A stretch of DNA of 24,334 bases from a virus: positions 1-24,334 of the IMG/VR virus record IMGVR_UViG_3300051212_000966; one strand, written 5' to 3'. The position numbers and the translations under genes are program-made. Below are positions 3,579-22,520 of this stretch, in pieces; the stretch's first letter is position 1; each line of letters begins with the position of its first letter. A model generated the notes under the pieces. It saw nothing but the letters and a program-made list of their open reading frames with translations. It made no database searches and was not told where the DNA came from.

Positions 3579-4011
3579 GGGCCAGCTCCCTGGTGGAAGC
3601 GGGAAGCAATCAGCTAGGGATTGCTCCGATGCCTCAATCCTAGACCATGGCGGGAGCGGATGCGGCCAAAGTTAAATAAGTACATAACTGCAGTACATAA
3701 TTCCCGATTAAATGCAGCCTCCTGCTCCCCGTTACAGTTACAATGGTTAATAACAATTTCCCCAGCTCATGCCGAAAAATTGAAATCGCCCGACGAATCT
3801 TCAGGCCCCACTGTTGACATCCGTTGCGCTGGAAGGGATTTCAAGGGAGAAAAGGGTATAATGATATAACGATAGCGTTGTACGTTAGGCTTATGTAACA
3901 TCCCTTTGTACTAAAAAAATCGCCATATGCGCCTAAACGCATAGTTCTCTCGGCCACTATCAACACAAAAAAAGGCCCCGAAGGGCCAATTTATGAATTG
4001 TCACAAATGGA
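3579..4011. other. 433-base non-coding region with repeats
   Basis: No convincing gene on either strand. The longest frame (3621-3869, +) has no ribosome site and no protein-like character. The stretch holds a GCAATC/GATTGC hairpin (about 3604-3623), one TAGGATT box (- strand, 3642-3636), a duplicated AGTACATAA near 3673-3696, GTAACTGTAACGGGG on the - strand near 3750-3730, a TATGCG/CGCATA hairpin (3926-3943) with a T-run 7 bases further on the - strand, and a terminator at 3967-3987. It is more A/T-rich than its surroundings. A control region or replication element is possible but unproven. Confidence 0.5.
3967..3987 (-). terminator. intrinsic terminator D
   Basis: On the - strand GGCCC-TTCG-GGGCC (3987-3974) is followed by seven T (3973-3967). 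It lies 25 bases after the stop of the 4012-4287 gene. The same stem-UUCG design appears at 4488, 5369 and 6031. Confidence 0.85.
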
Positions 4012-4287
4012 TCAGCAATCTGGCCATTCATAGCCTTCGGGATATTCCCAAAGGTCGCCATCTTGGTACAATCGCCACGTCACACCGTTATTTGTGAGCG
4101 CGGCATCATCCAAAATAGCCTGCCAGGCTTCCCAATACCATTCATGATCCGGGCCAGACTGACAAATTGTCACGTCTTCCCAGTCAATTCCGGCTTTCTG
4201 GGCCCATTCTTCGTCAATATCCGAGCAAAAAAGCTGCGGAATGAAGACGCCATGGGCATCGGAGAGCACGAGATTCGGTCCAAGCAT
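4012..4287 (-). CDS. small acidic Trp-rich phage protein
   Basis: 91 residues starting MLGPNLVLSDAHGVFIPQLF, with SDIDEEWAQKAGIDWEDV, HEWYWEAWQAILDDA and WRLYQDGDLWEYPEGYEW. Very acidic and rich in Trp. Small phage proteins with a WYWEAWxxILDxA helix and a WRLxQDGDLW strand recur in phage accessory regions (recalled, not searched); their role is unknown. It is the only gene between terminators A and D, with a TAGGAG ribosome site 12 bases before ATG 4287. Confidence 0.75.
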   Translation of the reverse strand: MLGPNLVLSDAHGVFIPQLFCSDIDEEWAQKAGIDWEDVTICQSGPDHEWYWEAWQAILDDAALTNNGVTWRLYQDGDLWEYPEGYEWPDC

Positions 4288-4420
4288 TGAAAAACTCCTA
4301 CTAAGTGAGCAAGTCGGTGATCCCGACCCATGAATCCTACCACTTGGCGCGGCCTGATGGCGGGAATCGATGGATCAGTGCCCATCCGACTCCTGAATCC
4401 TAGCAAACCGGACGCCACCA
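4288..4420 (-). repeat. leader with two TAGGATT repeats (cassette A)
   Basis: The - strand reads TAGGATTCAGGAGTCGGA (from 4402) and TAGGATTCATGGGTCGGG (from 4339), two imperfect copies 63 bases apart, each followed by a GGxCAC(C/T)G-like stretch. The ribosome site TAGGAG precedes ATG 4287. Similar pairs occur in cassette B. Confidence 0.5.
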
Positions 4421-4487
4421 CCCCCTGTAACAATGTCACAGAACTTCATAATGCGGCGGTTACTATCAACTATCAACAAAATGCAAC
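4421..4487 (-). promoter_or_regulatory. conserved post-terminator block A
   Basis: Immediately after terminator A the - strand reads TTGATAGTTGATAGTAACC, TTATGAAGTTCTGTGACA, TTGTTACAGGGGG. It aligns with blocks B and C. The position between a terminator and the next gene's leader suggests a promoter. TTGATA and TATGAA are only 13 bases apart, so this is not a standard sigma-70 arrangement. Confidence 0.5.
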
Positions 4488-4509
4488 AAAAAAGGGCCCC
4501 GAAGGGCCC
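4488..4509 (-). terminator. intrinsic terminator A
   Basis: On the - strand GGGCCC-TTCG-GGGCCC (4509-4494) is followed by six T (4493-4488), 11 bases after the stop of the 4521-4916 gene. Confidence 0.85.
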
Positions 4510-4520
4510 GTTTCGGTTAA

Positions 4521-4916
4521 TCAGCAAGGGTTCCGGAGCGAATCTAGGTCGTGACGGGGTTCCATTGCGGCGGATGCTAGGCGGCCCGTGGCTTGCCAGC
4601 GCTGGTAGGCGAACTGACAATAGGCTTCGGCATCTTCGAATCGGTTAAAGTCGGGCGATTGCCACCAGGTAACCGATTGCGCGTCTACCGGAAACTCGTA
4701 GTTAACGGTTTCCTTGACCCATACATTGAAAACATCGTAATCATTGACCGCCTCATCACGTCCGGCTTCGATTGAAAACTCGGCGGTGATGTTGGTGGCG
4801 TCGTGATCACACCACGCGTGGCGGATCACGTCGGATTGTGCTTCGATCGGGCTGCCGTAATGAATACGGGTGTACTCAAGCGGCAGGTGAGCGGTGCTGA
4901 CGGTTGCGGTTGTCAT
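4521..4916 (-). CDS. hypothetical phage protein, 131 aa
   Basis: 131 residues from ATG 4916 (MTTATVSTAHLPLEYTRIHY), chosen because CCACCTAGAAAGGAG sits just upstream; the frame is open to 4973 but that part is leader. Contents: TRIHYGSPIEAQSDVIRHAW, a Trp-rich middle (NVWVKETVNYEFP, SVTWWQSPDFNRFEDAEAYC) and a basic tail. No membrane segment. Second gene of the cassette that starts with the 4970-5191 gene. Function unknown. Confidence 0.75.
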   Translation of the reverse strand: MTTATVSTAHLPLEYTRIHYGSPIEAQSDVIRHAWCDHDATNITAEFSIEAGRDEAVNDYDVFNVWVKETVNYEFPVDAQSVTWWQSPDFNRFEDAEAYCQFAYQRWQATGRLASAAMEPRHDLDSLRNPC

Positions 4917-4923
4917 GGAATTC

Positions 4924-4962
4924 TCCTTTCTAGGTGGGTTGAATGGGGCCATTGCTGGCCCC
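4924..4962 (-). promoter_or_regulatory. structured leader: hairpin plus CCACCTAGAAAGGAG
   Basis: GGGGCC (4945-4950) pairs with GGCCCC (4957-4962) around a 6-base loop. CCCACCTAGAAAGGAG then leads to ATG 4916. Same order as the leaders at 2266, 3023, 3261 and 5618, with a new stem sequence. Confidence 0.6.
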
Positions 4963-4969
4963 GGTTTGA

Positions 4970-5191
4970 TCATAGCTCAGCGAGCATCTCATCGAGAGCC
5001 GCTGTGTCGATTCGGCCATCCATCCATCGGGCACCATCCGGAGTCATTTGCCCGAATCGGTGCTCTAGACGGGGGATGAGCGCATCGTAGCGATCGTACT
5101 GACGGGCCACTTTGTACATGCGCTCGTCATTCTGCAGCCACAGGGCCACGTTCCAGGTTTCCCAATTAGCCCAGCCGTTGAAATCGGCCAT
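4970..5191 (-). CDS. NGWxNxETWNVALWL-family phage protein
   Basis: 73 residues starting MADFNGWANWETWNVALWLQ, then NDERMYKVARQYDRYDA, a short helix (ALIPRLEHRFGQM) and DGARWMDGRIDTAALDEML. The NGWxNxETWNVALWLxND start is a signature I recall from a widespread small protein of tailed phages; the family has no known function that I can name. Ribosome site TAGGAGG 6 bases before ATG 5191. First gene of cassette B; the 131-residue gene follows after a hairpin leader. Confidence 0.8.
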   Translation of the reverse strand: MADFNGWANWETWNVALWLQNDERMYKVARQYDRYDALIPRLEHRFGQMTPDGARWMDGRIDTAALDEMLAEL

Positions 5192-5311
5192 TTGATCCTC
5201 CTATGTGGGTTGAGCCGAGCGGTGTGCCCGACCTGCCAATCCTACCGCATCAGAGCGGGGCTTGGCGAATCGGTGTCCGTTCGACCTCTCAATCCTACAC
5301 CACCGGCCACC
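5192..5311 (-). repeat. leader with two TAGGATT repeats (cassette B)
   Basis: The - strand reads TAGGATTGAGAGGTCGAACG (from 5297) and TAGGATTGGCAGGTCGGGCA (from 5244), 53 bases apart; both continue into CACCG. The 51 bases 5245-5295 recur without a mismatch at 6093-6143, inside another gene. TAGGAGG closes the leader before ATG 5191. Confidence 0.6.
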
Positions 5312-5368
5312 CCCTGGCGCTGTCACAATGTCGCAAAACTTCATAGTGGGGTGGCTACTATCAACATG
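5312..5368 (-). promoter_or_regulatory. conserved post-terminator block B
   Basis: After terminator B the - strand reads TTGATAGTAGCCACC, CTATGAAGTTTTGCGACA, TTGTGACAGCGCCAGGG. The parts TTGATAGTA, ATGAAGTT and TGTGACAGCGCCAGGG are shared with block C, and TTGATAGTA, TATGAAGTT and GACATTGT with block A. Confidence 0.55.
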
Positions 5369-5388
5369 AAAAAAGGGCCCGAAGGCCC
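5369..5388 (-). terminator. intrinsic terminator B
   Basis: On the - strand GGGCC-TTCG-GGCCC (5388-5375) is followed by six T (5374-5369), 5 bases beyond the stop of the 5394-5609 gene. Confidence 0.85.
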
Positions 5389-5393
5389 TAAGA

Positions 5394-5609
5394 TTAAGCG
5401 TCCGGCATGTACACCTTGGATGGAATCCCCATCTTATTGAGCGCCGTGTAGAACGCTGCACGCTCGCCACGCCAGCGATGGATGTCCGCGACGTGTTCCC
5501 CCATCCGTTCCCTGGCACACTTCGCAATGTTGAACCACGCCAGCGTGTGAACGCGGTCGGTCGGTTCGTAGTCCATGGTCAGGCCATGGGAGGTGTAGCT
5601 CGTGTTCAT
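5394..5609 (-). CDS. hypothetical phage protein, 71 aa
   Basis: 71 residues starting MNTSYTSHGLTMDYEPTDRV, then helices HTLAWFNIAKCARERMG and HRWRGERAAFYTALNKMGI, ending SKVYMPDA. Basic helical middle, no membrane segment. ATG 5609 follows CCACCTAGAAAGGATCATC, and the stop is directly followed by terminator B, so it is the second and last gene of its cassette. Function unknown. Confidence 0.75.
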   Translation of the reverse strand: MNTSYTSHGLTMDYEPTDRVHTLAWFNIAKCARERMGEHVADIHRWRGERAAFYTALNKMGIPSKVYMPDA

Positions 5610-5617
5610 GATGATCC

Positions 5618-5653
5618 TTTCTAGGTGGGTTGGATGGGCCCGTTGCCGGGCCC
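5618..5653 (-). promoter_or_regulatory. structured leader: hairpin plus CCACCTAGAAAGGA
   Basis: GGGCCCG (5636-5642) pairs with CGGGCCC (5647-5653) around a TTGC loop, followed toward the gene by CCACCTAGAAAGGATC and ATG 5609. It has the strongest stem of the set. Confidence 0.6.
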
Positions 5654-5670
5654 GTGGTCAGTGTAGCCGA

Positions 5671-5895
5671 TCAGCCGAGGCTATGGCCAGACCTGGCTTG
5701 TAGCCAGGATTCGGCATCGCCAACCGTTTCAAGCAACACGGCATCTTGCTTCCAACGGCACTTAAAACCGTTGGCAACACGGCCAATATAGCCGTCAATT
5801 TGCCACTGCTCTGGTAGTGAGAAGTATCGCACAGCGGTGAAGCCGCCCATGGCGCAGTCCTCGCCAGTGCCGATACGGGTCGTGAGTGAAGCCAT
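5671..5895 (-). CDS. hypothetical phage protein, 74 aa
   Basis: 74 residues starting MASLTTRIGTGEDCAMGGFT, then AVRYFSLPEQWQIDGYIG, VANGFKCRWKQDAVLLET and VGDAESWLQARSGHSLG. The alternating strands and final helix suggest a small alpha/beta domain. TAGGAGG lies 6 bases before ATG 5895. First gene of cassette C, followed by the 71-residue gene. Family not recognised. Confidence 0.75.
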   Translation of the reverse strand: MASLTTRIGTGEDCAMGGFTAVRYFSLPEQWQIDGYIGRVANGFKCRWKQDAVLLETVGDAESWLQARSGHSLG

Positions 5896-5974
5896 CTGAT
5901 CCTCCTATGGGGTTTGAACCGACCTCAGCGATCGGTCCCCTCACTGTAGCGCATCGCCCAGCCAACCCGTCAAT

Positions 5975-6030
5975 CCCTGGCGCTGTCACACTGTTGTGAA
6001 ACTTCATGCTGGCGCCGCTACTATCAACAC
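5975..6030 (-). promoter_or_regulatory. conserved post-terminator block C
   Basis: After terminator C the - strand reads TTGATAGTAGCGGCGCCAG, CATGAAGTTTCACAACA, GTGTGACAGCGCCAGGGA. It aligns with blocks A and B. Between it and ATG 5895 there is one GCTACAGT box but no TAGGATT pair. Confidence 0.5.
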
Positions 6031-6053
6031 AAAAAAAGGGGCCCGAAGGCCCC
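6031..6053 (-). terminator. intrinsic terminator C
   Basis: On the - strand GGGGCC-TTCG-GGCCCC (6053-6038) is followed by seven T (6037-6031), 7 bases after the stop of the 6061-6354 gene. Confidence 0.88.
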
Positions 6054-6060
6054 ATCCTGT

Positions 6061-6354
6061 TCACTTCGCGGCGCACACCGCGCCCCAGTGGGCCGCATCA
6101 GAGCGGGGCTTGGCGAATCGGTGTCCGTTCGACCTCTCAATCCACCTCCAGCGGAAGATCGGTGCGCACCCCCCTGGCCAAGCCACCTGCAGCTCATGCT
6201 CCTGGGCGATCAGGCGTTCGACCTGCGCATCCTGGGCAGCACTAAGGGGCCCATAGATTCCCTCCAGTCGGTCGATCCGCGCGTTCAAAAGAACGATGCG
6301 GCGGATGGCCTCACGGTGGCGGGAACGGACGGCGCTGCGGAACTGAGTGGTCAT
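6061..6354 (-). CDS. basic helical phage protein with a repeat-derived C-terminus
   Basis: 97 residues from ATG 6354 (MTTQFRSAVRSRHREAIRRI). Residues 1-58 are a strongly basic, coiled-coil-like helix (LLNARIDRLEGIYGPL, AQVERLIAQEHELQ). The last 27 or so residues (IERSNGHRFAKPRSDA and on) are encoded by a 51-base sequence that also exists, identical, in the untranslated leader of the 4970-5191 gene. The C-terminus may therefore be a recent extension. It is the first - strand gene left of the control region. Ribosome site weak (TAGAAGCG). Function unknown. Confidence 0.65.
   Translation of the reverse strand: MTTQFRSAVRSRHREAIRRIVLLNARIDRLEGIYGPLSAAQDAQVERLIAQEHELQVAWPGGCAPIFRWRWIERSNGHRFAKPRSDAAHWGAVCAAK
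6093..6143. repeat. 51-bp exact repeat, copy 2 (copy 1 at 5245-5295)
   Basis: The 51 bases starting CCGCATCAGAGCGGGGCTTG and ending GACCTCTCAATCC are identical in both places. One copy is in a non-coding leader, this one is in the 3' part of a reading frame. Flanks differ immediately outside on both sides. Confidence 0.85.
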
Positions 6355-6596: not shown

Positions 6597-8537
6597 ATGC
6601 CTGTCTCTCCCCAGGACTTTGCGCTTTGGTCCGACCTCACAGGCAATCCTTATCCTCGTACGCCATCAGAGCAGATGGCACTGGCACCAGAGGTATATAG
6701 CTTTACCCGGAACTTGGGGCGTAAGGGCGGACCCACTATGAGTCCACTGCGTCGCGCTGTTGATGTTGTTGGTAAAGCTGCTCTTGGCGTCGGTGCTCTT
6801 GCTGGCGCTGCTTATCTTGGTAAACAGCTTTTAGGTGGTAGCGATGACGTTGAAAAAGTAAGTGTTGAAGATCTTGGTACAAGTAGCAGTCAACAACCCA
6901 CTGGTAAATCTTTTCTTGAATCTAAAGTTCAACAGCAACCTGAGGTTGAGCAAGCCACTTATCGTCGTGATCGCCCACGTGATGGTGAAATTGAAGAAGA
7001 CGTATACGCACCACGCTTGACCCGTGGGGAGTTAACAGATACTTACCCGACTGAGTTAACACAATCTTCACCTTTACCGGAACAATCTTTAGTTGCTGGT
7101 GAGACTTATAGGCCAAGTGGAACACCATCTACACAGATTACATCTGCGTGGGCCAAGGCAATTCGTGATCTAAAAACAGAAGGCGCACAAGCAAGACCTG
7201 CTCGCGAGCCTTATCCTCAATTAAGCGAAGCGGAAAAAGAAGCAGCATACTCAGAAATCGGCAGTTATGGTCCTTATGCGGTCGGGAGAGAGCATGAAGC
7301 TGTTTCTAAACGAGCGGAACAATTTATCTCCCGTCTTACCCCTGGGTTTACGAAGTTAGAAGTTGATAACGAAGTTGAAGTGCTTACTCCAGTTGAAAAT
7401 GCTGGGAGCATTGACGCTGCCTCGCCAGTTGTTAGAGCATCAGGGGATATTACTCCGGCAACTAGCGGAGATAATTATGGACAAAAAATCATTCCTGGTC
7501 AGACTGCAATCACTCAAGAAGTGAAAGGTTTATCATCAATTAAACCGACACGTACTCCAATTGAAGCAAAGCCTGTAACCCAGAGTGAAGTTATTTCTGG
7601 GCAACAGACTTTCTCTCCTGGCAGTGAAATTCAGATGGTGGGAGAGGATGCTGCGCAAAAAGCTGCAGCATTCCGTAAGAGCGCAGCTTACGCAACAATG
7701 CAAAAGCAGTATCCAGGTTTACAGGATATTGAATCTCCGACTCAGCCTGCATCTTCTGCACCCGTTGTGATTAAAGATGTAAACGTGGGTGAAGCCCTGC
7801 GGTCGAAAGGATTAGCCCTCGGCGGCGGCGGTGATGTCTACGTAACGACTCCAAGTGGGCGTGATCTACAAATTTTTCACCCATATGCTGAACACTCCAA
7901 GCCTGGTATCCGTCAAACCGCTTTAGCTGAACAAAACGAAGCACGTGAATTGCTTGCTTCTGCTGGTGTGACGCCTGAAGCTGCAAAAAGCTACTGGAGT
8001 GAAAAAATCGCTGGAAGCGCTGAAAGCCCAATCGCAGCCATGTCGAAACCTGCGGCTGCCCCTGTCACCGCAAAGGTGGAGCAATCCTTCGGTCCCACCG
8101 CCAGTGAAATCCGTGATTTAGATGCGTTACTTCTTCGCTCTAGGGCTGATCTCAGTCAGGAGCGTCGCAATGAGTTACGTGATCAGGTGCTATCAAAAAA
8201 ATACAAAACAATGGGAGCTGCGCCGTCCACTGTTACCACTGCTCCACAGCCTTCGCCTGCTTCTTTAGTTGAATCCGCTCCGGTCACGTACCCAGACGTA
8301 ATTTCAGGCCCCTCCCCTGAAAGTGTTCGCTTCGCCAGAGAAACTGCACGGGGCATGAGTCGCATGGGTCTTATGGCACAACGTGAAGCTGGTCGCGCAA
8401 GTCTCGCGCAGCGTGCTGAATTTGGTGGCGCACCAGTGGAAGCTCCTGGTGAGGAACCCCGTGAACTCGCTGATCCTCGTGTGATGCGTGAAATGATGCG
8501 TCGCCCAGCACCTTCTGCAATCCCTAGTTATTTTTGA
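6597..8537 (+). CDS. large presumed virion protein, unknown function
   Basis: 646 residues. The N-terminus (MPVSPQDFALWSDLTGNPYP, then SFTRNLGRKGGP) is followed by a Gly/Ala hydrophobic segment at about residues 54-80 (VGKAALGVGALAGAAYLG). Most of the rest is low-complexity, rich in Pro, Ser, Thr, Gln and Glu, with helical pieces such as LDALLLRSRADLSQERRNEL, and ends with a basic tail and SYF. It is the first gene of the structural operon, next to the control region. A membrane-active segment in a long flexible protein would suit an internal or ejected virion protein, but this is inference. No ribosome site is visible. Confidence 0.75.
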   Translation: MPVSPQDFALWSDLTGNPYPRTPSEQMALAPEVYSFTRNLGRKGGPTMSPLRRAVDVVGKAALGVGALAGAAYLGKQLLGGSDDVEKVSVEDLGTSSSQQPTGKSFLESKVQQQPEVEQATYRRDRPRDGEIEEDVYAPRLTRGELTDTYPTELTQSSPLPEQSLVAGETYRPSGTPSTQITSAWAKAIRDLKTEGAQARPAREPYPQLSEAEKEAAYSEIGSYGPYAVGREHEAVSKRAEQFISRLTPGFTKLEVDNEVEVLTPVENAGSIDAASPVVRASGDITPATSGDNYGQKIIPGQTAITQEVKGLSSIKPTRTPIEAKPVTQSEVISGQQTFSPGSEIQMVGEDAAQKAAAFRKSAAYATMQKQYPGLQDIESPTQPASSAPVVIKDVNVGEALRSKGLALGGGGDVYVTTPSGRDLQIFHPYAEHSKPGIRQTALAEQNEARELLASAGVTPEAAKSYWSEKIAGSAESPIAAMSKPAAAPVTAKVEQSFGPTASEIRDLDALLLRSRADLSQERRNELRDQVLSKKYKTMGAAPSTVTTAPQPSPASLVESAPVTYPDVISGPSPESVRFARETARGMSRMGLMAQREAGRASLAQRAEFGGAPVEAPGEEPRELADPRVMREMMRRPAPSAIPSYF

Positions 8538-8574
8538 TTACCGGGTGTAGATTTAATTTATTGAGGAACCAACA

Positions 8575-8970
8575 ATGACATTCGTGGAACCTGTTATTGC
8601 TTTGCTGATTGGTTTAGCAACTGGCGCCGTTGCAACCGCGATTCAAAAAAGTAAGCCAGCACAGACACTACTTAAATATGGACCTGTCGTTAAAAAAGCA
8701 TACGACATTATTGATCCGGTTTTAGATCAAAACCTGCACAACTGGAAAGGCTCTCAAGTTGATAAGGCATTCGAGCTTGCTATTGAAGTTGCGAGTGACG
8801 GTAATCTGACGCCAGCAGAGATCAAAATGATCGCTTATTCAATGGCGCAAGCCTGGTTGCCAAGAAAAGCTGCGGATAAAGTCCGTGAGTTTGAAGCAGC
8901 CTCTAATTCTGTCCCCGAACTCCAAGAGGCAGCAAATATTGCCGCTAAAATTAACGGCAAAGTCAACTAA
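8575..8970 (+). CDS. small protein with N-terminal membrane segment
   Basis: 131 residues starting MTFVEPVIALLIGLATGAVA. The first 22 or so residues are a hydrophobic helix, followed by a soluble, mostly helical domain (KSKPAQTLLKYGPVVKKAYD, LTPAEIKMIAYSMAQAWLP, REFEAASNSVPELQEAANI). GAGG lies 8 bases before the ATG. A single N-terminal helix without a signal cleavage motif suggests a membrane-anchored protein; a holin-like role is possible but unsupported, because no endolysin is nearby. Confidence 0.7.
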   Translation: MTFVEPVIALLIGLATGAVATAIQKSKPAQTLLKYGPVVKKAYDIIDPVLDQNLHNWKGSQVDKAFELAIEVASDGNLTPAEIKMIAYSMAQAWLPRKAADKVREFEAASNSVPELQEAANIAAKINGKVN

Positions 8971-8994
8971 CAAAATACTAAGTATTTCTTAATC

Positions 8995-9198
8995 ATGGCC
9001 GAAGGCGGCAAGTGGATTCAGGAAGCAGTCAGCGAGCATCCTGGCGCGTTCTCTAAAAAGGCTGAAGAAGCGGGAATGAGCACAGCTCAGTACGCATCTA
9101 AGGTAACTTCCAACCCGGAAGAGTACGATAAGCGTACGGTTAAACAGGCTAACTTAGCTAAGACCCTCAGCAAGCTACGTAAAAAGACCGGCAAGTAA
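8995..9198 (+). CDS. small basic phage protein (WIQ...KKAEEAG type)
   Basis: 67 residues: MAEGGKWIQEAVSEHPGAFS, KKAEEAGMSTAQYASKV, then a basic end with QANLAKTLSKLRKKTGK. Small proteins with the order WI(Q/A)xA, a GAFxKKAxxAGxS helix and a QAxLAxTLxxLRKK tail are widespread in phages and large DNA viruses, as I recall them; their function is not established. The charge suggests nucleic-acid contact or packing inside the capsid. 24 bases after the previous gene, 3 bases before the next. Confidence 0.75.
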   Translation: MAEGGKWIQEAVSEHPGAFSKKAEEAGMSTAQYASKVTSNPEEYDKRTVKQANLAKTLSKLRKKTGK

Positions 9199-18893: not shown

Positions 18894-21800
18894 ATGTTTA
18901 TTGATAACGACTTTCCCAAGTTGCTAGGTGCAGAGCTGTATCGGCCTTAATTGAGTTACTTTATCCCTCTAACAGGTGACTCACGTGTGGGGCGCCCATG
19001 GTGAAAGCCATGGGGCAATACCCGTCAAATTCGGTGAACCCCTTGAGGTGGGGAATACCGAGCCAAGCCTTTTAAAGGAAGGTGTAGAGCCTGGACGGCG
19101 GGCTCCGTAGCATTGTATAATGCCGGAGAAGGGACAGGGATTAAGTGGATCATCAACGCTCTCGCGACGCACTGCGTTCTTTTCTTATTGGGACTCTTCT
19201 AGGGGATTGCCACGCTTCATCTGTTTATCAGTGGCAGTGGTCAAATACTTCTCTGGATTGGGTTGAATGGAAAGCCGCTTACATCCGCAAGAGAATGGGG
19301 TTTTCATGTAACGTACACCGGACAGAAGATAATTCATGTAAGTCCGGGTATATGTACGGGTTTACCGCTGCGTCTAATAAGGGTCGTCTACGTGTTTACC
19401 GAAATTGGTTTTATGACAAAACCAATGTAAAACGGATCACAAAAAAAATACAACACCTTGACCATCCTCTGGGGTTAACTGCATTGATTTTAGATCAAGG
19501 CTCATGCCGAGGTGGGTTAGACAAAAATCATAAAACGGGAAACTTCTATTATAGAAAACCTACAGTGCGTATACATCTGAACAAGCACTCACTTGATGAG
19601 CTTGTCTTGTTTCAAGACGCGCTTAAGCAGAATTTCGATTTGCGTACATCGATACAAATCAAAAATAAAGTTACCGGTTACCCGGATTTGTATTTTGGTA
19701 CAAAAGCTACTCAGGATTTGTGGGTATTAATTAAACCCACGGTTCCTGATATCCCTTTTGCGAACAAGAAATTCCATCCACTTATCAGCCAGACTACAAA
19801 CGCTAAGTTCGTTAAGCGCTCTAGAGGCGTTAACATTGTTTAGCGGCAGCGAAAGCTGTAGTAGTATTGCACCCAGCTTACATCGTCGAGATGGCTGCAG
19901 AGCCTGTAGTCGTCCACGATTTTACTAAGCAACCGGGTCAGACTGTTCAGTTAGATCGTTATCGTTTCTGGGGTAAATTGATTGCCCCCTTGATTTATTT
20001 AATCAAGGAAAACCGCGTGAATTGCTGGAACCCCGCCGCTATTTAATGGGGAATCAGCAGCCAAGCTATTTAGGAATAAATAGAAGGTTCAACGACTAGG
20101 TAAAGTAATCCAGACCGGATAAAATACCCACGAGCGCGTGGCAGCTAATAAAGCTGATGATATAGTCTGAACTCACGGGATGGAAAACCGTGAGAGCCAG
20201 AGGATAAAAAGCCTTTGGGATAACAAATTGAATCCTGGTACGAAAACTCAACGTGAACGGACCCAAGATCAGACAATCGGTACTGCTAACAGCCGGTCGA
20301 TTGTTAAGGACAAAGTGTTAGTATCGCTCCGCGAATACACCGGTCCTGCTGATCCTAACAATGCGAATCTTCCGAGCACCTTTAAAATCGCTTAACCCTA
20401 GGCGCCCGTACGAGTAATCGTTTGGTGCAAACTCCGTGAATTGCTGGGACCCCTCTACCATCTGCTAGGATGCCGGGGAATCAGCAGCCAAGCTTGATGA
20501 GTAATCATCTTGAAGGTTCAACGACTAGGGCAGACCTTGAACTTGATTCTTTGCCGCCAGAAGATAAGGCTTTTCTTAAAGCCTGTATTCTTGGAGATGG
20601 GTGGTTAGGGCTCCAACGCGGAACCTATACCCATTTGCGAATCGGACACTCAGCCAAGCAACTAGATTGGTTGAAATATAAAGCCGAACGCATAAATACA
20701 ATCTTAAGAAAAAATCGCAGGATTTTGGGGCCATACTTTCAAAGCGACGGTAAAACAAAAGAAAAGAAGCACGCTTCTTATTTGTTTTGCGTTGATGATC
20801 ATCACTTGTTCAAACCTTGGTTTGACCGTTGGTACGAAGTACCTGAGGAAGGTGATGTAATTAAGCATGTGACGCCTGATTTTCTTTCTGGTTTGGGATT
20901 AAAAGAGCTTGCAGTCGTGTGGTGTGACGATGGGTGTGTCACATCTTTAGATAGATTCAACAAGTACACCACAAAAAACGGCAGACTCAGGCTATACCCT
21001 TATGTAGAAGCCAGGGGGCAATTGGCTCTCTGCTCTTTTACCTACAAAGAACAAGTTTTATTGCAAGAATGGCTGCATTCTGTAACTGGAATGCACTGGA
21101 ATATAACGAAGAGAAGCAAGAACAAGCGAACCACGCTAACGATCGGCAAAAGAAACTTGCGTGAGTTTTTGCCGATGATTGCTCCTTATATTCCTGATTG
21201 TATGTCTTACAAGGTCGATCTTTCCCACTGCCGAGTAAAGCAAGGAAAGAGCCCCACGAGCGCGGAGCAACCTTCTTAGGTTGATGATATAGTCTGAACT
21301 TGCAGGATAGCAAACTGTAAGAATCAAGGGATAAAGAGCCCTTGAGATAACAAATTGCGGGAGACCCTGATGACGGCCCAGCGTCTTCTTTTAGACACTG
21401 GTAACCTCAATATGTTCCATCAAAGCATCGGTTCTCTAACCCTGCTTGATGATTACCGACGCTGGCGCGATCGAGTTTTTCTCGACGAATTTGCCAAATC
21501 TGAAGCTCGCGGTGCCGCTTCGGATACCCAGGGTGGTTACTACTACCCTAACGGCAAAGTTAAGACTGGTTCCACCACTCTGACTGCCTACACCGCTACT
21601 GAATACGCTTCTGAGCGTTACAAGTTCAACGTCAAGACTGACCTCCTTGAAGTTGTTAAACAACTCCGCAAACGCAACGTGCCCGTCTTCGCTGACGGCT
21701 ACTACCGTTGTATTGCAGATCCCTCCTTCATGAAGGATCTGCGTGCCGATCAAGGTTTCCGCGAAGTTGCTCGCTATCCTGGCATGGGGCAGCCGAATCC

Positions 21801-22520
21801 TCTGATGGGTTCTATGGCGCCTAACGCTGCCATCTATGGTGGCGGTCAGTATGGTCAGGCTCAATTTATTGCAGGGGAACCTGTGATGCCGTCCGGCTTC
21901 GTTTTTGAAGGGGTAAAAGAAACTTGCCCCGTTGCTGCGTAATCAGTAACAAGAACAGGGTGAATTGCTGGAAAGCTCATTCGGAGCCAATAACACCACA
22001 ACGTAATCGGTAATGGTAAGCGTGACGGTTTAAAAAGTTATTGGTGAGCTAATCAGCAGCCAAGCTGCCCAGGGATGGGTAGAAGGTTCAACGACTAGAT
22101 TCCGAGTCCAGAACGGACAGTAACGAATCCACGAGTGCCCTGGTTCCTACCTTGTCTTTCTAAAGGCAAAAGGAACAAGATATAGTCTGGCCCGCCGGGC
22201 CGAATTTGTCAACCGGCGGATCCATGGGATAAAGAGCCCATGGGATAACATGACGACGTTTCTTCGAGTCCACCAACTTTGCTGGCAAGAGCATTACCGT
22301 CGATACTGGCGATGGTGCTGGTGCCGTTTCCCATGATACTCCTCCTGCTCTGTTCTTCGGCCCTCAGGCCGTTGGCGTGGGCATCGGCGGTCCGAACGCT
22401 CAAGTTCTGATCAACAACAACGACGATTTCAGTCGCTTCATCATTCTGATTTGGCAACTGTACGCCGGTTTCGCGAACCTGAATAAGGATTTCGTGACTG
22501 CCGCCTTCACCATCGTTTGA
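18894..22520 (+). CDS. major capsid protein gene, five exons split by four group I introns
   Basis: Exons 18894-18947, 19870-19974, 20231-20392, 21358-21914 and 22253-22520 join into 1146 bases without a stop: 381 residues. The product starts MFIDNDFPKLLGAELYRP, continues HPAYIVEMAAEPVVVHDF (exon 2), NPGTKTQRERTQDQTIGT (exon 3), RETLMTAQRLLLDTGNLN (exon 4), and RRFFESTNFAGKSITVDT (exon 5), ending at TGA 22518-22520. The position after the scaffold-like gene and its size fit the HK97-fold shell protein; the identification is by context and remembered similarity to phage capsid proteins. Exon junctions were set by continuous reading frame, U before and G at the end of each intron, and guide-sequence pairing; the first junction could be off by a few bases. 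No single exon shows the full protein. Confidence 0.85.
18948..19869 (+). ncRNA. group I intron 1 in the MCP gene (with endonuclease ORF)
   Basis: 922-base self-splicing ribozyme. Visible core pairings: P2 GCCCATGG/CCATGGGGC (18994-19016), P3 CCGTC/GACGG (19022-19026, 19094-19098), P4 CGGT/ACCG, P5 CCCC/GGGG, P6 CCTTT/AAAGG, P8 CTCCG/CGGAG. The core reads CAAATTCGGTGAACCC, AATACCGAGCCAAGCC, GGAAGGTGTAGAGCCTGG, the style of chloroplast and cyanobacterial introns. The endonuclease gene begins after the P7 3' strand (near GGGACAGGG), so it sits in the P9 region. P1 is the weakest assignment (GCCU with GGGC at about 18989). Confidence 0.8.
19145..19843 (+). CDS. LAGLIDADG homing endonuclease of intron 1
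   Basis: 232 residues from GTG 19145. LAGLIDADG proteins cut the intronless target allele so that the intron is copied in. Motif 1 is SFLIGTLLGDCH (residues 12-23) with its Asp present. Motif 2 is GLTALILDQGS (110-120), where Gln stands at the position that is normally the catalytic Asp (DDG in most relatives). Between them is a basic DNA-contact region (EWKAAYIRKR, GRLRVYRNWFYDKTN, RITKKIQHLDHP). The C-terminal part has YRKPTVRIHLNKHSLDELVL. Lies wholly within intron 1, downstream of the ribozyme core. Could be partly inactive or a maturase. Confidence 0.8.
   Translation: MDHQRSRDALRSFLIGTLLGDCHASSVYQWQWSNTSLDWVEWKAAYIRKRMGFSCNVHRTEDNSCKSGYMYGFTAASNKGRLRVYRNWFYDKTNVKRITKKIQHLDHPLGLTALILDQGSCRGGLDKNHKTGNFYYRKPTVRIHLNKHSLDELVLFQDALKQNFDLRTSIQIKNKVTGYPDLYFGTKATQDLWVLIKPTVPDIPFANKKFHPLISQTTNAKFVKRSRGVNIV
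19975..20230 (+). ncRNA. group I intron 2 in the MCP gene (no ORF)
   Basis: 256 bases. P1: exon end GGGGU with guide GCCCC (about 19984-19988); GATT just before the guide can pair with the 3' exon start AATC (P10). P2 CCTTGATT/AATCAAGG. Core GAATTGCTGG, AATCAGCAGCCAAGC, GGTTCAACGACTA and GATATAGTCTGAA, with P7 GACTA/TAGTC and P4 TGCTG/CAGCA. P9 CTCACGG/CCGTGAG. Ends ATAACAAATTG. It is the minimal, ORF-free form of the same type as introns 3 and 4. Confidence 0.88.
20393..21357 (+). ncRNA. group I intron 3 in the MCP gene (with endonuclease ORF)
   Basis: 965 bases. Same core as introns 2 and 4: GTGAATTGCTGG, GAATCAGCAGCCAAGC, GGTTCAACGACTAG, then after the ORF GATATAGTCTGAACTTGCAG, and end GATAACAAATTG. 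P1 pairs exon CGCU with guide GGCG (about 20400-20403). P9 elements TTGCAG/CTGTAA and CAAGGG/CCCTTG are visible. The ORF occupies the P8 loop, and its 5' end reads through P4 to P7, so RNA core and protein share sequence. Confidence 0.88.
20470..21279 (+). CDS. LAGLIDADG homing endonuclease of intron 3
   Basis: 269 residues from ATG 20470; a start at ATG 20497 (MSNHLEGS) is equally possible. Either way the start lies inside the ribozyme core, so the first 25 or so residues are dictated by the RNA. Motif 1 FLKACILGDGWLG (residues 35-47) and motif 2 LKELAVVWCDDGC (144-156) both keep the catalytic Asp. Basic DNA-contact stretches lie between (KAERINTILRKNRRILG) and after (ITKRSKNKRTTLTIGKRN). 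Complete two-motif protein, expected to act as a monomer on an asymmetric site spanning the exon 3 / exon 4 junction. Confidence 0.85.
   Translation: MPGNQQPSLMSNHLEGSTTRADLELDSLPPEDKAFLKACILGDGWLGLQRGTYTHLRIGHSAKQLDWLKYKAERINTILRKNRRILGPYFQSDGKTKEKKHASYLFCVDDHHLFKPWFDRWYEVPEEGDVIKHVTPDFLSGLGLKELAVVWCDDGCVTSLDRFNKYTTKNGRLRLYPYVEARGQLALCSFTYKEQVLLQEWLHSVTGMHWNITKRSKNKRTTLTIGKRNLREFLPMIAPYIPDCMSYKVDLSHCRVKQGKSPTSAEQPS
21915..22252 (+). ncRNA. group I intron 4 in the MCP gene (no ORF)
   Basis: 338 bases. P1: exon end GGGGU with guide GCCCC (about 21926-21930), the same guide as intron 2. Core GTGAATTGCTGGAAAGC, AATCAGCAGCCAAGC, GGTTCAACGACTAGA and GATATAGTCTGG; P9 GGCCCGCCGG/CCGGCGG-like pairs and CCATGGG/CCCATGG near the 3' end; ends GATAACATG. 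It splits a codon after its second base (GT|A), unlike introns 1 to 3, which lie between codons. Confidence 0.87.

Follow-up and report, generated by a model that had tools for sequence, protein, structure and literature searches.

In mycobacteriophage LittleE (Cluster J), the major capsid gene carries an intron whose splicing was demonstrated by RT-PCR and protein sequencing, and a capsid gene of Tuc2009 likewise has an intron (PMC3706429). Larger numbers per gene are on record as well. In the Bastillevirinae, the DNA polymerase and terminase genes are interrupted by as many as three group I introns, and homing nucleases accompany many of these (PMC11878797); three group I introns are also attributed to orf142 of Staphylococcus phage Twort, going by the title of a paper cited there (PNAS 1999, 96:7005). 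The window analysed here, 24,334 bases long, spans an entire IMG/VR contig. It is an incomplete genome from a lineage whose genomes are near 78-79 kb, and at positions 18894-22520 it holds a single major capsid protein (MCP) gene interrupted by four group I introns.

This locus resembles that of LittleE in that a group I-like intron with an endonuclease gene lies in the major capsid gene, but LittleE is an unrelated phage with only one intron, and its endonuclease is encoded on the opposite strand (PMC3706429). The Bastillevirinae introns lie in different genes, with a maximum of three per gene, and in the text of that paper neither "capsid" nor "four introns" occurs (PMC11878797). The window's MCP gene has four introns and that of a relative, L197, has six, compared to three in Twort orf142. 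Twort orf142 is not known to encode an MCP. Streptococcus thermophilus phages, whose DNA resembles part of one intron described below, have a known self-splicing intron in their lysin gene; gene and host differ from those of the window. Within the incomplete coverage of our literature search, there was no report of at least four introns in one phage gene, the maximum found being three, and none of introns in S-EIVl-like MCP genes. The six introns of L197 also exceed those of any single phage gene that we found reported. The elements themselves are ordinary and of a known kind; what is new is how many of them occupy one essential gene, together with the hotspot that this gene forms across the lineage.

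The interrupted capsid gene

The features of the locus, in window coordinates, are as follows:

18894..18947, plus strand: MCP exon 1, codons 1-18 (spliced alignment to the intronless relative L006; 98% amino acid identity)
18948..19869, plus strand: group I intron 1, 922 nt, site 18.0 (RF00028, 37.5 bits, E 3e-7)
19145..19843, plus strand: LAGLIDADG homing endonuclease gene in intron 1, 232 aa, GTG start (PF03161, LAGLIDADG_2, E 1e-14)
19870..19974, plus strand: MCP exon 2, codons 19-53 (spliced alignment to L006)
19975..20230, plus strand: group I intron 2, 256 nt, site 53.0, no open reading frame (RF00028, 78.1 bits, E 2e-19)
20231..20392, plus strand: MCP exon 3, codons 54-107 (spliced alignment to L006)
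20393..21357, plus strand: group I intron 3, 965 nt, site 107.0 (RF00028, 33.4 bits, E 6e-6)
20470..21279, plus strand: LAGLIDADG homing endonuclease gene in intron 3, up to 269 aa (PF03161, LAGLIDADG_2, E 1e-14)
21358..21914, plus strand: MCP exon 4, codons 108-293, ending in phase 2 (spliced alignment to L006)
21915..22255, plus strand: group I intron 4, 341 nt, site 292.2, no open reading frame (RF00028, 56.7 bits, E 6e-13; boundary from spliced alignment)
22256..22520, plus strand: MCP exon 5, completing codon 293 and running through codon 380 to the stop (spliced alignment to L006)

Removal of the introns restores the frame of intronless L006 exactly, in a gap-free spliced protein-to-DNA alignment of 380 amino acids, and the joined exons are open throughout, whereas the unspliced frame contains many stops. 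These results bear out the preliminary description, which had proposed one MCP gene cut by four group I introns, with a stop-free frame emerging from five exons only once four segments are taken out. It had put the introns at about two thirds of the gene, in agreement with 2484 of 3627 bases (68%), and its expectation that gene callers would see unrelated pieces also holds up, since an MCP gene split in this way offers ordinary gene finders only fragments. Capsid homologues failing to align across the junctions had been named as an outcome that would refute it; instead, 73 intronless homologues run unbroken across all four.

The lengths first given for introns 1 to 3 (922, 256, and 965 nt) were exact, but the 338 nt given for intron 4 was wrong, the spliced alignment to L006 yielding 341 nt. 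The shorter intron, with exon 5 beginning at 22253, adds a second arginine that is absent from the intronless homologues compared and was rejected, whereas the 341-nt intron gives ...FEGVRFFEST... without a gap relative to the 380-residue protein of L006. Furthermore, as read from the sequence, the start of exon 5 (ACGUUU) pairs as P10 with an AAAC located immediately 5' of the intron 4 guide, which is impossible for the 338-nt choice. Because intron 4 is 341 nt, the protein is corrected from 381 to 380 residues, the length found in close intronless homologues.

The spliced protein is 98% identical, end to end, to the MCPs of the intronless IMG/VR contigs L006 and L007, and its IMG/VR relatives number in the hundreds. 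A tblastn search of phage records with the 381-residue query returned one match, Synechococcus phage S-EIVl (KJ410740), at 69.7% over residues 1-381 in a single piece; S-EIVl has the same MCP, but its gene is without an intron. The spliced protein is assigned by PHROGs to phrog_1357, major head protein (E 2e-15). Its match to TIGR04387, the NCBIfam model for the N4-gp56 MCP, does not reach the cut-off (24.4 bits against 60; E 2e-5), and Pfam Phage_capsid_3 gave only E 0.05. Judged by these comparisons, the protein is an MCP and, with the TIGR04387 match below cut-off, only a distant relative of the N4-gp56 family.

Ribozyme features of the introns

All four introns were matched by the Rfam covariance model RF00028, in line with the group I consensus blocks recognized in them at the outset; introns 2 and 4 score above the curated cut-off of 50 bits and introns 1 and 3 below it. 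The splice-site rule proposed at the same time, a U before each intron and a G at its end, is met in every case, the U closing the 5' exon lying opposite a G in a P1 of four to five pairs. The P1 strands are GCCU (18944-18947) and GGGC (18990-18993) for intron 1, in which the P1 loop holds a long extra hairpin, GGGGU (19970-19974) and GCCCC (19984-19988) for intron 2, CGCU (20389-20392) and GGCG (20401-20404) for intron 3, and GGGGU (21910-21914) and GCCCC (21926-21930) for intron 4. A P10 could be assigned to intron 2, between AAUC (20231-20234) and GAUU (19980-19983), and to intron 4, between GUUU (22258-22261) and AAAC (21920-21923).

Introns 2 to 4 have a common core (GAAUUGCUGG ... AAUCAGCAGCCAAG ... 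GGUUCAACGACUA ... GAUAUAGUCU), and the core of intron 1 is of a different type. Between P7 and P3, the location of the extra helices P7.1/P7.2 that serve as the criterion for subgroup IA2, introns 2 and 4 have an insert of approximately 30-40 nt and intron 3 has its endonuclease. Intron 1 is 74.5% identical over 608 nt to the intron at the same site in L209/L210, with paired changes in the P2, P8, and P9 hairpins; both helix sides are changed in P2 (CCAUGGUGAAAGCCAUGG versus UUAUGGCGAAAGUCAUAA) and in P9 (CAGCGAAAGCUG versus CGACGAAAGUCG). Streptococcus thermophilus phage DNA matches intron 2 over its 3' third, at 76-78% identity.

Endonuclease genes and insertion sites across the lineage

The two endonuclease genes had no place in the preliminary description. 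That of intron 1 is located after the P7-P8 core, and that of intron 3, which also matches phrog_11023 LAGLIDADG (E 8e-10), is inserted after the R segment and before the P3 3' strand, overlapping the ribozyme core at its ends. Solved structures searched with both endonucleases gave no match, and no relative of the intron 3 endonuclease was found in the phage records searched. By their substitution rates relative to same-site relatives (dN 0.31 and dS 2.2 for intron 1 against L209; dN 0.26 and dS 2.7 for intron 3 against L211), both genes are under purifying selection. At the site of intron 4, L225 carries a 1225-nt intron whose flanks are 96% and 98% identical to the 341 nt of the window and whose insert contains a 334-residue open frame with two LAGLIDADG-like motifs. 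By this alignment, intron 4 is the endonuclease-free form of the L225 intron.

Spliced alignment of the fetched relatives identified 44 other IMG/VR contigs with one to six introns in the same MCP gene: one in 19, two in 11, three in 7, four in 6, and six in a single contig, L197 (IMGVR_UViG_3300020414_002119), where they follow codons 4, 35, 85, 144, 219, and 242. At 227-287 nt, the L197 introns are all too short to hold a complete endonuclease gene. Approximately 20 conserved insertion sites are used, the figure being approximate because neighboring sites (35-37, 87-88) may each be one site, and the most frequent in the sample follow codons 4, 48, and 107. Long, endonuclease-length forms and short forms both occur at sites 4.0, 48.0, 107.0, 285.0, and 292.2. 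The intron after codon 4 was observed in L009-L012, L035, L037, L058, and L066, mostly at 808-810 nt but at 268 nt in L012; with only three or four residues upstream it is hidden from homology searches, and the spliced-alignment penalty was relaxed to detect it. An RF00028 search of 34 related records gave matches in 15, every one inside the MCP gene when positions were compared with the spliced alignments, and no match anywhere in the long intronless genomes, including that of S-EIVl (79 kb). Introns at the same site are often mutual nearest relatives, yet similarity of 80-87% also occurs between introns of different sites, so both homing and movement to new positions seem to have taken place.

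Several limits apply to this sample. Spliced calls at site 184.2 in L213/L218 and those in L230 were left out as unreliable, calls at 33.0 are probably to be assigned to the 35-36 site, and the spliced frame of L236 contains one in-frame stop. Because patterns drawn from conserved exons were used to find several of the contigs, the higher MCP conservation at intron sites (0.978 versus 0.925 at random positions, approximately 1 in 10,000) comes from a test biased towards this result. Part of the sample was retrieved by site-specific patterns, and some of its contigs are near-identical, making it unfit for frequencies; the split of 73 intronless to 50 intron-bearing loci among the 123 examined, duplicates included, was set by how the loci were found.

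Presence and absence of an intron could be compared directly at the intron 3 site, 107.0, where nine other contigs besides L207, a contig with the same four introns as the window, carry same-site introns. In L206 and L208, which come from other samples and match the window at 99.3% identity across the 1670 bases leading up to intron 3, this intron is exactly absent. Between the window and L206, 8 nucleotide differences fall in the 93 bases before the site and 9 in the 142 bases after it; around introns 1 and 2, by comparison, the flanks hardly differ. This clustering fits co-conversion during homing, with the caveat that a second cluster lies directly after intron 4, which both contigs carry.

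Inferred splicing and homing, and alternative explanations

We are confident that the locus represents the MCP gene of an S-EIVl-like tailed phage colonized by four self-splicing, partly homing introns. The host would probably be a picocyanobacterium, as inferred from S-EIVl. Each intron is predicted to fold into a ribozyme in the transcript and to attack the 5' site after the U held in P1, after which the exons would be closed behind the terminal G of the intron to give an mRNA for a normal 380-residue capsid protein. The LAGLIDADG endonucleases of introns 1 and 3 may cut intronless copies in co-infecting relatives, allowing these introns to spread by homing. Introns 2 and 4 lack an endonuclease, and intron 4 may have lost one or not yet gained one. 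The MCP gene is a standing target: other intron combinations, with as many as six introns in one gene, are found in relatives at about 20 conserved positions. The sequence, the structure matches, the exact empty sites, the selection on exons, and the presence or absence of introns between close relatives are direct observations, whereas splicing in the cell and homing are inferences, as there is no RNA evidence and endonuclease activity is untested.

It is conceivable that the introns are useful rather than only selfish, delaying or tuning capsid synthesis or producing exon-skipping capsid variants. Introns 2 (19970-19988) and 4 (21910-21930) share the exon end and guide GGGGU/GCCCC, which in principle would permit exon 2 to be joined wrongly to exon 5, with intron 4 attacking exon 2 at its 3' end and exons 3 and 4 being skipped. 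Group I exon skipping has been reported for phage Twort, to go by a title cited in PMC11878797. However, joining exon 2 to exon 5 would shift the frame, 73 of the 123 relatives examined are intronless, albeit in a biased sample, and intron combinations differ freely between viruses, as expected of selfish elements. We therefore consider a useful role improbable.

A decaying or dead copy, broken by insertions that do not splice, in a virus that is defective or relies on a different capsid gene, would be compatible with the lack of RNA evidence and with a contig that is only a 24-kb fragment in a lineage with genomes near 78-79 kb. A second MCP copy could also lie outside this fragment, although S-EIVl gave a single match. 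Against a dead copy, all five exons are in frame and, relative to intronless L006, have a dN of 0.018 and a dS of 1.08 over 380 codons, a dN/dS of approximately 0.02 that marks strong purifying selection; this is evidence that the gene works, and a dead or unspliced copy would look different. The insertions also end at exact codon-preserving points that obey group I boundary rules, and among the many relatives with one to six introns in other combinations, the spliced frame is nearly always intact. A dead copy is thus very unlikely.

Erroneous joining of sequences from several viruses during assembly deserves mention given that the contig is metagenomic and its close relatives show presence/absence variants, but it is scarcely credible: L207, a separate contig, is identical to the window at 5519 of 5519 bases (5.5 kb), and L206 and L208 carry introns 1 and 2 in the same places, L206 also having intron 4. 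L207 is possibly the same virus population resampled and is not fully independent. Homing endonucleases occur in inteins too, but inteins or excision at the DNA level can be dismissed, as no insert is read through in the MCP frame and group I ribozyme cores are present.

The MCP gene ranks with the phage genes of highest expression and often serves as a marker. If the introns splice as proposed, this gene must survive four correct splicing events, or six in L197, which makes it a demanding natural trial of ribozyme efficiency. Genes split in this manner will escape annotation and MCP surveys. For testing homing, endonuclease loss, and intron competition, the lineage supplies dozens of naturally occurring alleles that either have or lack each intron and each endonuclease, and the hotspot provides a concrete case for why essential, conserved genes collect introns. 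A broader proposal, that the MCP gene of S-EIVl-like cyanophages is a general hotspot where endonuclease-armed introns choose which capsid alleles survive co-infection, and where intron order and shared guides give regulated or alternative mRNAs, remains speculative and we think it unlikely in this full form.

Two minor observations concern annotation and the rest of the window. In the S-EIVl record (L005, KJ410740.1), the MCP frame is open over its full length at 8001-9152 on the plus strand, with a GTG start, but only the C-terminal part is annotated (AHV82228.1), with an opposite-strand gene over the rest (AHV82227.1); the MCP is probably misannotated in the deposited genome. At 3953-6154 of the window, repeats of 35-79 nt in three to four copies lie between small minus-strand genes, and some comprise a GC-rich hairpin beside a plus-strand A-run (a minus-strand T-run); they look like repeated terminator or regulatory units.
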